Part shown: in pieces, positions 29,477 through 33,235 of the stretch | Numbering within the stretch: position 1 is the stretch's first letter | Layout: every line of letters begins with the position of its first letter | NCBI GenBank assembly: GCA_913057685.1 | Contig: CAJXOA010000021.1 | Coordinates: 1-39,721 of the forward strand | Direction of reading: 5' to 3' | Length of the DNA: 39,721 nt | DNA from: an uncultured Trueperaceae bacterium | GTDB taxonomy: Bacteria; Deinococcota; Deinococci; Deinococcales; Trueperaceae | Made by a program: the position numbers and the translations under genes | The notes under the pieces: generated by a model | What the model was told of the DNA's origin: nothing | Databases searched by the model: none | The model's input: only the letters and a program-made list of their open reading frames with translations

Positions 29477-31405
29477 TCACTCCAGCTGTTCGCGTTGGGC
29501 GTAGGAGAACACCAGGATGCTGCGCACGCCGTCCTCGGTCGTCGTCGGGAAGTACGGCGGGGCGAGGCCCGCCTCCAGCCGCGGGTCGTAGACGAACGTC
29601 CGCGAGAAGCCGCTGCGCATGGCGCCCGAGCCCGCCCAGTACGTCCCGAAGGCGCCGTAGTACTCGCCGATGATGCCGCCCAGGAGCGTCACCGTGCCGC
29701 GCGGCGGGCCGTCGCGGAAGCGCTCGACCCGCACCGACCCCTCCGCACTCATCAAGGTGCCGTGCACCTCGAGGTTCTCCGGGGCGTTCCACGTCGGGTC
29801 CGCATTCTCGTTGCCGATGCGCACGTCCCCCCGTTGGCTGTAGATCCCCAGCAGGTTCGTCGCGTCCAGGTTCTCGCACGTCGACGGCGTGACGCTGCCG
29901 TCGGGATTGCGCGACGCCGCTTCGCTGCACGGCGGGTCCTCGTAGCGGAGGTCGCCGGTGATGCGCACGTCGTCGCGGGCCGCCAACGTCAGCGTGGAGA
30001 ACGCCGCGACGGCGGGCGGCGCGTCGGACGCGTCGTCGCTCTTGGGTGGCGTCCGCCCCGGCCCGGTCGCGCGCTCGACGTCGCCGTCGGCGTACAGCAC
30101 GCCGTTGAACGCCCCCTCCGACGACCAGTAGCAGCCGTTGGGGGTGCACACCTCGCGCTGCAGTTCGTCGTCGTCGGTCGCGCGCCAGCGCACCTCGCCC
30201 TGCAGCGTGCTGCAGCCGTTCTCGGTGCAGACCCGCGTCGGGCTCGCCAGCTCCACCTCGACGTACTGGTGCGTCGCGCCGGCGTCGACCGGCGTGCCGT
30301 CCGCGCTGCCGGCGTAGAGCGTCATCCCTTCGACGTCCCCCATGATCGCGAGGCCCGACGCCTCCGCCTCCGCCTGCTGCTGCTGCGCGTTCTCGGGCAG
30401 CGGCACGAACGACGCCTCCCAATCCACCCCCTCGGTCAGCTCCGGCCGCTGTAGGCCGTACCAGTACGAGTAGAAGGCGGGCGCGGTCGGGTCCGCCATC
30501 GTCGCGACCGACTGGAAGTACGGGAAGAAGAACGCCCCCGCCTCGCGGTCGGGACCGGGCACGGGCGCGCAGCCGTCCACCCCCGCCTCGAAGCAGCCGG
30601 CGCTCGTGACCTCCCCTCCGAACCACGGTTGGCGGTAGAAGTTGAAGTGCTCGTTGCTGTGGACCGGCCCGTCGAACAGCGTGTCGGACGTGAACCAGAT
30701 CTGCGCTCCGCCGCGCGTCTGTTGGTTGCCGGAGAACAACGCGTAGCGCGCGAACGACGCCCGCCCGACGAGGAACTGGTACTCGCCGTAACTGACGATC
30801 GAGCGGCGGAAACCGTCGACCTCCCCCACCGCGACGACCACGTACGGCAGGGCGTAGCGTTGCTCGGCGACGGCGCCCGACCCCTCGCGCGCCTCGCCGC
30901 TCACGAACCGGCCCTCCCCCAACGTCACGCCGGGCGGCAGCCCTTCGCCGCAGGCGACGTCGGTCAGGTGGATGCGCAGCGACACCGACGCGTCCTCGCC
31001 GACGTCCGGCAGCGCCGCGTCGCACACGAGCGCATCGACGTCGGCCTGCAGGCGGCTCGCCACCGACCCGGAGCCGCCCGTCAACGCCACCGCGACCGCG
31101 TCGGGGTCGGGCCGGTCGGCGCCGACCGCGCCGGACCCGAACGACCAGCGCGCACCCGACGACGAGTCGCCCTCGACGATGGCGTGCAGCGCCCCGCGGA
31201 CGGGGCCCTGCAGGAGCGCGCCCGCGAGGTTCGCCGTGCCGCGCGCCAACGCCAAACTGCGGACGATGCCGACGTCGTCGACGCTGGTCTCGACCTCCGT
31301 CAACGCCCGCGTCACCATCATCGTCCCCACCGCCGTCACGAGGCCCATCACCAGCAGCGCCGTCAACGCCGCGATGCCCTGCGTCCGGCGCGCCCTCACG
31401 CGCAT
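29477..31405 (-). CDS. ComZ/DUF4900-like large minor pilin
   Basis: A 642-residue protein beginning with a type IV pilin-like N-terminus: basic MRVRARRTQ, then Gly10/Ile11 at the probable prepilin-peptidase site and a hydrophobic helix to about residue 32. Position +5 is Thr15 instead of Glu, as in tip pilins of the GspK kind. The remainder is large and beta-rich; residues 480-600 contain short repeated strands (DVRITGD, GDVRIGN, NLEVHGTLMS, GSVRVE, GTVTLLGGIIG), suggesting a beta-solenoid. Position after GspH-, PilV- and PilW-like genes, and size, match Thermus ComZ, a DNA-binding minor pilin needed for transformation; this identity is inferred. ATG 31405 has GGAGG 10 nt upstream and overlaps the previous gene by 10 nt; GTG 31399 is an alternative. 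Last gene of the operon. Confidence 0.75.
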   Translation of the reverse strand: MRVRARRTQGIAALTALLVMGLVTAVGTMMVTRALTEVETSVDDVGIVRSLALARGTANLAGALLQGPVRGALHAIVEGDSSSGARWSFGSGAVGADRPDPDAVAVALTGGSGSVASRLQADVDALVCDAALPDVGEDASVSLRIHLTDVACGEGLPPGVTLGEGRFVSGEAREGSGAVAEQRYALPYVVVAVGEVDGFRRSIVSYGEYQFLVGRASFARYALFSGNQQTRGGAQIWFTSDTLFDGPVHSNEHFNFYRQPWFGGEVTSAGCFEAGVDGCAPVPGPDREAGAFFFPYFQSVATMADPTAPAFYSYWYGLQRPELTEGVDWEASFVPLPENAQQQQAEAEASGLAIMGDVEGMTLYAGSADGTPVDAGATHQYVEVELASPTRVCTENGCSTLQGEVRWRATDDDELQREVCTPNGCYWSSEGAFNGVLYADGDVERATGPGRTPPKSDDASDAPPAVAAFSTLTLAARDDVRITGDLRYEDPPCSEAASRNPDGSVTPSTCENLDATNLLGIYSQRGDVRIGNENADPTWNAPENLEVHGTLMSAEGSVRVERFRDGPPRGTVTLLGGIIGEYYGAFGTYWAGSGAMRSGFSRTFVYDPRLEAGLAPPYFPTTTEDGVRSILVFSYAQREQLE

Positions 31406-32316
31406 GGCACCACCGCCTCCGCGGTCTGGGGGCCTGGCTCGGGGAGCGGCGCGAGGGTCGTCAGCGTCCGTTGAATCGTCCCGAACGGTCCCTCCGCCTG
31501 CCCGACGAGGGTGACCCGGACGGCGTCGAGGTGGCGCTCCTCCCCCCCGACCCGCACGGTGCGGAGCGGCGCGCCGTCGGCGTTCTCGTACGGCGCGTCG
31601 CGCGTCTCGACGTCGCCGTCGGGGGCGACGTACAGGTAGCGCAGCGTCAGGGTGTCGACCGCGAAGGCGAGCGGTTCGCGGACGCCGTTGGCGGCGTAGC
31701 GCGACAGCTCCCCGGAGGTCGGGTCGACGCCGTAGCCGACCGCGGCGCTGCGCTGCAGGATCGTCGTCCCGTCGGTGTAGTCGATCGTGTTCGCGCAGGC
31801 GGGATGCACCAGGTTCCACGTCCGCGACGTCGCGCCGCCGCGGCGCGAGACGTTCGTGATGGGCAGGACCACCGCGATCCCCTGTCCGTTCTTCATGACG
31901 ACCTCGCGGCCGGCGACGTCGAGCGCGGCGGCGCTCGCGGCCGACGCGCCGATCTGGACGTTCGCGGCGTTCACGAAGCTGGCGTTGCGGCCCGAATCGT
32001 GCGGGTACACCGGCCACGCCGGTCCGTCGGGCAACAGCAACGCCACCGAGGTCGGGCCGGTCTCGACCGGCGTGTCCGCCAACGCCCCGAACGCCATCGA
32101 GCGCAGGTCCTGCGCGACGACCTCCGCGGACCGCCGGAGGCTGCCCTGCAGCTCCGTCGCGACCTCGTTGTGCCGGAACATCTTCAGGGCCTGCACGAGG
32201 ACGCCGCCGGCGACGGCGACGAGCACCGCGAACACCGCGAGCGCCACCAGCAGCTCGACGAGGCCGAACCCCCGCCGGTCGCTCCGACCGGCCGCCCCCC
32301 GGGTCGCGCGGCGCAT
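31396..32316 (-). CDS. PilW-like minor pilin
   Basis: A 306-residue prepilin. The N-terminus carries basic residues, cleavage site Gly16/Phe17 and then GLVELLVALAVFAVLVAVAGG with Glu21 at +5, a full class III type IV pilin signature. The C-terminal domain is beta-rich with PilW-like features (comparison by architecture and position). It should be processed by prepilin peptidase and inserted into or under the pilus. ATG 32316 shares a base with the TGA of the upstream gene (TGATG). The next gene overlaps its end. Confidence 0.8.
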   Translation of the reverse strand: MRRATRGAAGRSDRRGFGLVELLVALAVFAVLVAVAGGVLVQALKMFRHNEVATELQGSLRRSAEVVAQDLRSMAFGALADTPVETGPTSVALLLPDGPAWPVYPHDSGRNASFVNAANVQIGASAASAAALDVAGREVVMKNGQGIAVVLPITNVSRRGGATSRTWNLVHPACANTIDYTDGTTILQRSAAVGYGVDPTSGELSRYAANGVREPLAFAVDTLTLRYLYVAPDGDVETRDAPYENADGAPLRTVRVGGEERHLDAVRVTLVGQAEGPFGTIQRTLTTLAPLPEPGPQTAEAVVPCA

Positions 32317-32789
32317 CAGTTGATCCCCGGCAGCAACGACGAGCCGTCGCCCGTCGGGGTCGGGGCGGGCCCGAACGTCACGGCGTCGACGCACGATTCG
32401 GCGTCGTCGTCGCCGCCGAAGCACACCGCCACCCGGTAGCGCACCGCGGCGGCGCCCGCGACGTCCACCGCGCCGTCGTGCGCGACCTCCGCGCGGTAGC
32501 GGTCCGGATCGCCGACGCCCTCCTGCGTCCCGAGCTCCGGGAAGGCGCCGACCAGCTCGCCGTACCCCCACGCGGCGGTGGCGTCCTCGGCGGCCAGGAC
32601 CCGCGCGTCGCCCCCGACCACCTCGCGCGTGAGGAAGGCGAGGACCTGCCCGGCGTGCGTCCGCACGTCGCTCGCACCGACCGCGCGGAGGGTCCCGACC
32701 GCCACGCCGGTCAGCGCGGCGGTGGCGAGCGCCGTCACCGCGACGGCGATCATCACCTCGAGGACCGTCAGGCCGGCGCGGCGCCTCAC
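32316..32789 (-). CDS. PilV-like minor pilin
   Basis: A 157-residue prepilin with a very short leader: MRRRAG, cleavage after Gly6, then LTVLEVMIAVAVTALATAAL with Glu11 at +5. The globular part is small and contains two cysteines near the C-terminus (AVCFGG, ESCVDA) that could form a disulfide. GTG 32789 overlaps the preceding stop by 4 nt and its TGA overlaps the next ATG by 1 nt. The PilV assignment rests on size, leader type and gene order. Confidence 0.75.
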   Translation of the reverse strand: MRRRAGLTVLEVMIAVAVTALATAALTGVAVGTLRAVGASDVRTHAGQVLAFLTREVVGGDARVLAAEDATAAWGYGELVGAFPELGTQEGVGDPDRYRAEVAHDGAVDVAGAAAVRYRVAVCFGGDDDAESCVDAVTFGPAPTPTGDGSSLLPGIN

Positions 32790-33235
32790 GGCGTCCGCTC
32801 GCTCTCGCCGATCAGCGACACGCGCACCGTCACCGTCTCCCCCTCGACGTCGAACGTCAGCGGGTCGGGGAGGGGATCGAGGGAGGCCAGCCGGCCGGGT
32901 GGGGTCGCCTCGAGCAGCGGGCCCGGCGTCAGGGTGGTCGGGGTGTCGGCGGGGAACGGCCAGTCGCGCTGCACGACGCCCGCGTCGTCGCGCATCTCCA
33001 GGCGGTCGCCGGCCCACGCGAGGGTCAACGGCTCGCCCTGCGCCGCCGCGGCGGTCGCGGTGGCGCGGACCGCGACGCGGAACGTCGCGACCGGGCCTTC
33101 GGCGCCCTGGCGCGCGACGGCGTCGCGCAACGGCCCCGCCCCGAGCGCCAGCGCGACGCTCAGCACCGCGACCGCGAGGATCAACTCGACGACCGTCACG
33201 CCCGCCCGCCTTCGCTTCCGCCCACACGCGCTCAC
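32786..33235 (-). CDS. GspH/FimT-like pseudopilin
   Basis: A 149-residue prepilin, first of the four-gene cluster. Leader MSACGRKRRRAG with cleavage after Gly12, followed by VTVVELILAVAVLSVALALG and Glu17 at +5. The size and the ATATAAAAQGEPLTLAW segment fit GspH/FimT, pilins that start assembly or bind DNA. GTG 33235 is the start: TACCGT lies 7 nt upstream with no Shine-Dalgarno site, so this operon probably begins as a leaderless mRNA. Its TGA overlaps the next GTG by 4 nt. Confidence 0.77.
   Translation of the reverse strand: MSACGRKRRRAGVTVVELILAVAVLSVALALGAGPLRDAVARQGAEGPVATFRVAVRATATAAAAQGEPLTLAWAGDRLEMRDDAGVVQRDWPFPADTPTTLTPGPLLEATPPGRLASLDPLPDPLTFDVEGETVTVRVSLIGESERTP

Follow-up and report, generated by a model that had tools for sequence, protein, structure and literature searches.

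ComZ of Thermus thermophilus (PDB 6QVI) binds DNA, has a pilin domain with a large β-domain before the last strand, lacks Glu5, and is encoded by the last gene after those of H/V/W-type prepilins. Its β-domain is a solenoid that separates the final pilin strand from the one preceding it (PMC6561018), and the PilA-ComZ locus differs between Thermus species (PMC5529391). In Myxococcus xanthus, multiple minor-pilin sets are thought to give tips of differing properties (PMC8833165). Here, we analyzed a whole contig of 39,721 bases (C21, hereafter the window) from an uncultured Trueperaceae bacterium with a genome of 2.29 Mb in 74 contigs (98% complete). The window contains four overlapping minus-strand genes (33235-29477) encoding three prepilins (H, V, and W) and a 642-amino acid DUF4900 protein (K). 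An earlier note on this DNA had reported this gene set, and its coordinates and overlaps of 1-10 nt were borne out by re-reading the sequence. We consider it likely that H-V-W-K is a complete minor-pilin set, providing an alternative priming and tip complex for the single type IV pilus machine of the cell. The sequence-based support consists of the genes, their order, overlaps and prepilin motifs, retention of the cassette throughout the bacterial order, the presence of one machine beside four cassettes, and a separate relative of ComZ.

Gene H (32786..33235, minus strand, GTG start) encodes a FimT/GspH-like minor prepilin of 149 amino acids, with orthologues in cassettes of Thermus, Meiothermus, Marinithermaceae, and Trueperaceae. 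Gene V (32316..32789, minus strand, GTG start) encodes a PilV/GspI-like minor prepilin of 157 amino acids, and gene W (31396..32316, minus strand, ATG start) a PilW/GspJ-like minor prepilin of 306 amino acids, which matched TIGR02532 and, weakly, gspJ. All three possess the class III leader with Glu5 of type IV pilus minor pilins (G↓VTVVE in H, G↓LTVLE in V, and G↓FGLVE in W), and their N_methyl matches exceeded the family cut-off in a whole-genome search. Gene K (29477..31405, minus strand, ATG start) encodes the ComZ-shaped putative tip pilin, whose N-terminus (RRTQG↓IAALTALL) is a prepilin-like leader without Glu5, as is the leader of GspK. The genes overlap by 4 nt between H and V (GTGA, 32786..32789), by 1 nt between V and W (TGATG, 32316..32316), and by 10 nt between W and K (31396..31405); the K start lies 10-13 nt ahead of the W stop in most Deinococcota records. 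These overlaps suggest translational coupling only, and the fixed stoichiometry that had been read into them does not follow.

DUF4900 (PF16241), a family to which Pfam assigns no function, was the sole Pfam match of K above cut-off, and the full domain was matched (residues 184-271, E-value 7.8e-30, 103.5 bits against a gathering threshold of 29.4). The fold and role discussed below are proposed here. The AlphaFold model of K, built from a 21-sequence alignment (predicted local distance difference test (pLDDT) 76, predicted template-modelling score (pTM) 0.71), has a pilin domain with a large β-rich domain inserted ahead of the last strand, as does the model of the Thermus arciformis orthologue; the alignments behind the two models are largely the same, and the models are not fully independent. 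The predicted elements, all on the minus strand, are an N-terminal pilin helix without Glu5 (residues 4-66, 31208..31396), which is the sole stretch similar in sequence to ComZ, four strands of the pilin sheet (residues 139-217, 30755..30991), a high-confidence β-rich region (residues 352-600, 29606..30352), and a final strand after the insertion, which ends in a conserved QREQ motif (residues 621-641, 29483..29545). DUF4900 itself (30593..30856) would comprise the two strands immediately ahead of the inserted domain together with the linker leading into that domain. A Foldseek search of 350,542 PDB chains (significance at E<=0.001) returned three T. thermophilus ComZ chains (6QVI) as the only significant matches of the K model (best E-value 2.0e-5), and again only the same three chains for the T. 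arciformis orthologue (best E-value 9.5e-8). From the strand pattern and the match to ComZ, we interpret the inserted domain as a probable β-solenoid, so that K is predicted to combine, with low scores of structural superposition, a pilin fold with a solenoid between its penultimate and last strands. The earlier note had looked to structure prediction for a pilin helix with such a solenoid, and the model supports a pilin helix with a large inserted β-domain.

Several observations weigh against this picture. Template-modelling scores (TM-scores) to ComZ were 0.22-0.33 with root-mean-square deviations of 15-18 Å, the relative placement of the domains was not reproduced, and the N-terminus and a linker at about residues 263-330 were modelled with low confidence. 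We therefore read the predicted K structure as having the architecture of ComZ but departing from it in how the domains are arranged or in large loops, and not as a close structural copy. Profiles of DUF4900 (24 proteins) and ComZ (about 30 relatives) aligned over the N-terminal helix alone (68-78 columns, E-values 4e-6 and 1e-7), an alignment that any pilin of this type could give. Additionally, K is split by frameshifts in T. parvatiensis (L105 5992-7832), Thermus sp. 2.9 (L108 5986-7922), and genome G046 (L077 5795-7652), and it may accordingly be dispensable. All of these frameshifts lie close to the linker that joins the pilin part to the inserted domain, and two of them coincide with short runs of G; they may reflect sequencing error, decay, or phase variation. 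A second local match to the ComZ profile, close to where the inserted domain begins, was dropped at a probability of 1.4%. BLASTP of K against ComZ gave nothing significant, leaving no full-length similarity to the ComZ group. Searches with phmmer against PDB sequences found no matches for K or for the fourth proteins of two further cassettes of the genome (C and D, described below), a BFVD fold search gave nothing significant, and viral contigs contained no relatives.

The strongest alternative, although an unlikely one, is that the window cassette is the locus of the competence pilus and that K is the ComZ of this organism, a DNA receptor. K does have the ComZ gene order and predicted architecture, and competence genes are present in the genome. 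However, a search of the genome for N-methyl motifs revealed several clusters, among which were four cassettes of H, V, W, and a fourth protein: cassette A in the window (642 amino acids), cassette B on C3 (L040 6796-9247, G000:C3; about 160 amino acids), cassette C on C35 (449 amino acids), and cassette D on C5 (563 amino acids, P0005). The fourth protein of cassette B is a pilin of the K type that lacks an inserted domain. That of cassette D is a relative of ComZ: its first half is 27% identical to the G046 ComZ (pairwise E-value 2e-10), and the two have a common C-terminal F-x-I/V-x-S-x-ERR motif. Its match to a three-row profile (E-value 4.5e-218) is not independent, as the profile includes the protein itself. 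The H and W proteins of cassette D matched those of the ComZ cassette (E-values 2e-9 and 2e-18) far better than they matched window H and W. Because the genome has its own ComZ relative on this other contig, K is not ComZ and the window cassette is not the comZ locus.

Comparison with Thermus points the same way. As a reference for ComZ we used the 557-amino acid protein of genome G077, encoded in an H-H-V-W-large cassette beside a thiolase gene, which matched the solved ComZ structure (6QVI) with an E-value of 7.6e-266. This protein lacks DUF4900, with a PilX_N match slightly below cut-off, whereas DUF4900 is present in K, and the sequence similarity of K to ComZ stops after the N-terminal helix. 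Of the two profile comparisons that the earlier note had proposed for K, the one with DUF4900 gave a match above cut-off and the one with ComZ aligned the columns of the helix only. The window cassette also does not show the pilA1-pilA2-pilA3-comZ-pilA4 arrangement beside a thiolase gene. Among 94 genomes of the phylum, in which hits were assigned to type by hand from E-values and alignments, 16 had both cassette types, 22 DUF4900 only, 17 ComZ only, and 39 neither. Many relatives therefore possess the DUF4900 cassette without ComZ, as the competence reading would have it; nevertheless, the two form separate orthologous groups that co-occur, and in G046 a ComZ cassette (minus strand) and a DUF4900 cassette (plus strand) stand back to back. 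Mutual exclusion of the two types is not claimed: within Thermus, one genome had both, seven DUF4900 only, ten ComZ only, and eight neither (Fisher p 0.08, phylogeny uncontrolled), and elsewhere the association was not significant. Window K is acidic (isoelectric point (pI) 4.5, a single lysine), unlike what the reading of K as a DNA receptor would favor, although the ComZ relative on C5 is acidic as well and Thermus orthologues of K have a pI of about 9. Since charge varies by organism across the orthologues, it is no guide to the ligand. The lysines by which ComZ contacts DNA, K98 and K233, are, on a reading of the alignment, not retained even in the ComZ relatives of G046 and C5; residue mapping is unreliable here and gives no usable DNA-binding signature. 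The proposed likeness to ComZ stands for the pilin helix, the inserted β-domain, and the sole significant PDB match, and falls for the assignment to the pilA1-pilA2-pilW-comZ locus.

We found one secretin in the genome (PilQ, on C3), adjoining PilM, PilN, and PilO and followed by aroC, one PilB-type ATPase (C9), two PilT-type ATPases (C9 and C8), and the prepilin peptidase PilD (C34). In addition, comEA (HHH and SLBB) was present, as was comEC, the gene of which runs off two contig ends. Thus, pilQ, comEA, and comEC, which the earlier note had proposed to look for, are present. The organism may well be competent on the evidence of comEA, comEC, and the C5 cassette; the window cassette is no evidence for competence, and natural transformability, as deduced from it before, is unsupported. 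With one secretin and one PilB-type ATPase in the genome, it appears that a single machine serves all four tip cassettes. The several M. xanthus minor pilin/PilY1 sets (clusters 1-3) similarly serve a single pilus machine; in contrast to them, the window cassette has no PilY1 gene, and the K pilin itself contains the adhesin-like domain. A search for PilY1 gave no match in the genome, but the control genomes gave none either.

The same inventory makes it improbable that H-V-W-K belongs to a type II secretion system (T2SS) and forms its pseudopilin tip (GspH-I-J-K). Both have the same order of four proteins and a K protein that lacks Glu5, W and V gave weak matches to GspJ and GspI, respectively, and the pilin domain of ComZ is closest to that of GspK (PMC6561018). 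However, the cassette has no secretin or ATPase of its own, and the genome offers none dedicated to a T2SS, as its single secretin lies in the pilMNO..Q-aroC locus and its PilB-type ATPase is the only one. Furthermore, K scored 11.5 bits against the GspK model, far from the cut-off of 130, and the insertion of GspK is helical and lies between strands 3 and 4 (PMC6561018), while that of K is predicted to be β.

The proposed tip complex of the type IV pilus is further supported by the recurrence of the cassette. Judged from sequence comparisons, the window cassette is a gene-for-gene orthologue of a non-comZ cassette in Thermus, Meiothermus, Calidithermus, Marinithermaceae, and Trueperaceae. In Thermus genome G081, for instance, a separate H-V-W cassette ends in a protein of 645 amino acids that shows 43% identity to K along its length, and named records with the cassette include T. 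arciformis, T. brockianus, T. parvatiensis, Meiothermus taiwanensis, M. rufus, M. luteus, Calidithermus chliarophilus, and several Trueperaceae. In the Deinococcota records, wherever the sequence ahead of a DUF4900 gene is long enough, H-V-W precedes that gene in nearly every case, and because of this recurrent order the gene set is far beyond chance. Window H, V, and W matched same-cassette proteins of other genera far better than those of other cassettes. In a maximum-likelihood tree of W, eight proteins from DUF4900 cassettes grouped together (support 93/98), apart from those of ComZ cassettes, with weak deep branches. In a Trueperaceae metagenome-assembled genome, Calidithermus, and G046, the cassette adjoins dihydrolipoyl dehydrogenase and related genes, and this shared neighbourhood suggests an old location. 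A decaying or purely structural remnant that primes pili and binds nothing, as the frameshifted copies of K and the patchy distribution of the cassette might imply, is very improbable, given that window K is uninterrupted and shows good conservation (mean column identity 45%, with numerous residues invariant across families) and that the large inserted domain is retained in all full-length relatives.

If H-V-W-K forms a tip complex, K would take the place of GspK or ComZ at the apex, with its pilin domain capping the fibre. By analogy with these proteins, K would be the first subunit to enter the fibre, with V, W, and H joining next, and would thereby prime the fibre and come to lie at its tip, and the inserted β-domain would project outward and bind an extracellular ligand. 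DNA is a possible ligand; a surface, a polysaccharide, or another target seems the better guess. More tentatively, DUF4900 proteins might represent a second, hitherto unrecognised lineage of ComZ-shaped tip receptors, in which a 2.3-Mb genome equips one machine with four interchangeable tips (K-type proteins of about 160, 449, 563, and 642 amino acids) that each recognise a separate ligand, and in which cassettes are gained, lost, and exchanged between related species. Neither DUF4900 (PF16241), nor its link to the ComZ architecture, nor the parallel cassette was described in the literature searched, which excluded subscription journals. These results provide a predicted fold and a likely role for a conserved family of unknown function, and indicate that the ComZ architecture is not confined to the competence locus. 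The order of H, V, W, and a large pilin is by itself insufficient to call comZ or competence in Deinococcota, and the general question of how a single type IV pilus can fulfil multiple roles is made testable.

Other arrangements were observed around related cassettes. In one Thermus genome, H-H-V-W-ComZ adjoins the thiolase gene (G077:C3:672000-682000, L073); in another, an unrelated X-H-V-W cassette lies beside the same gene, before a pilA4-like pilin (G081:C1:473000-480000, L074), a pattern resembling the exchange of one tip cassette for another at a constant site. In Meiothermus taiwanensis (L094 8650-12415), a second cassette of X-H-V-W type (X of 706 amino acids) follows the DUF4900 cassette, with a response-regulator-like gene between them. 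In the window, a promoter scan at the cassette, for which the sigma-70 consensus is a poor guide, showed none; the downstream neighbour is a convergent gene for pyruvate phosphate dikinase, and on the other side lies an unassigned plus-strand open reading frame, followed by citrate synthase. Finally, a DUF4900-like protein of PilX type is encoded directly behind a PilW-like prepilin in a Zixibacteriota record (L113 4562-7245), and the pairing of W and K therefore extends past Deinococcota.

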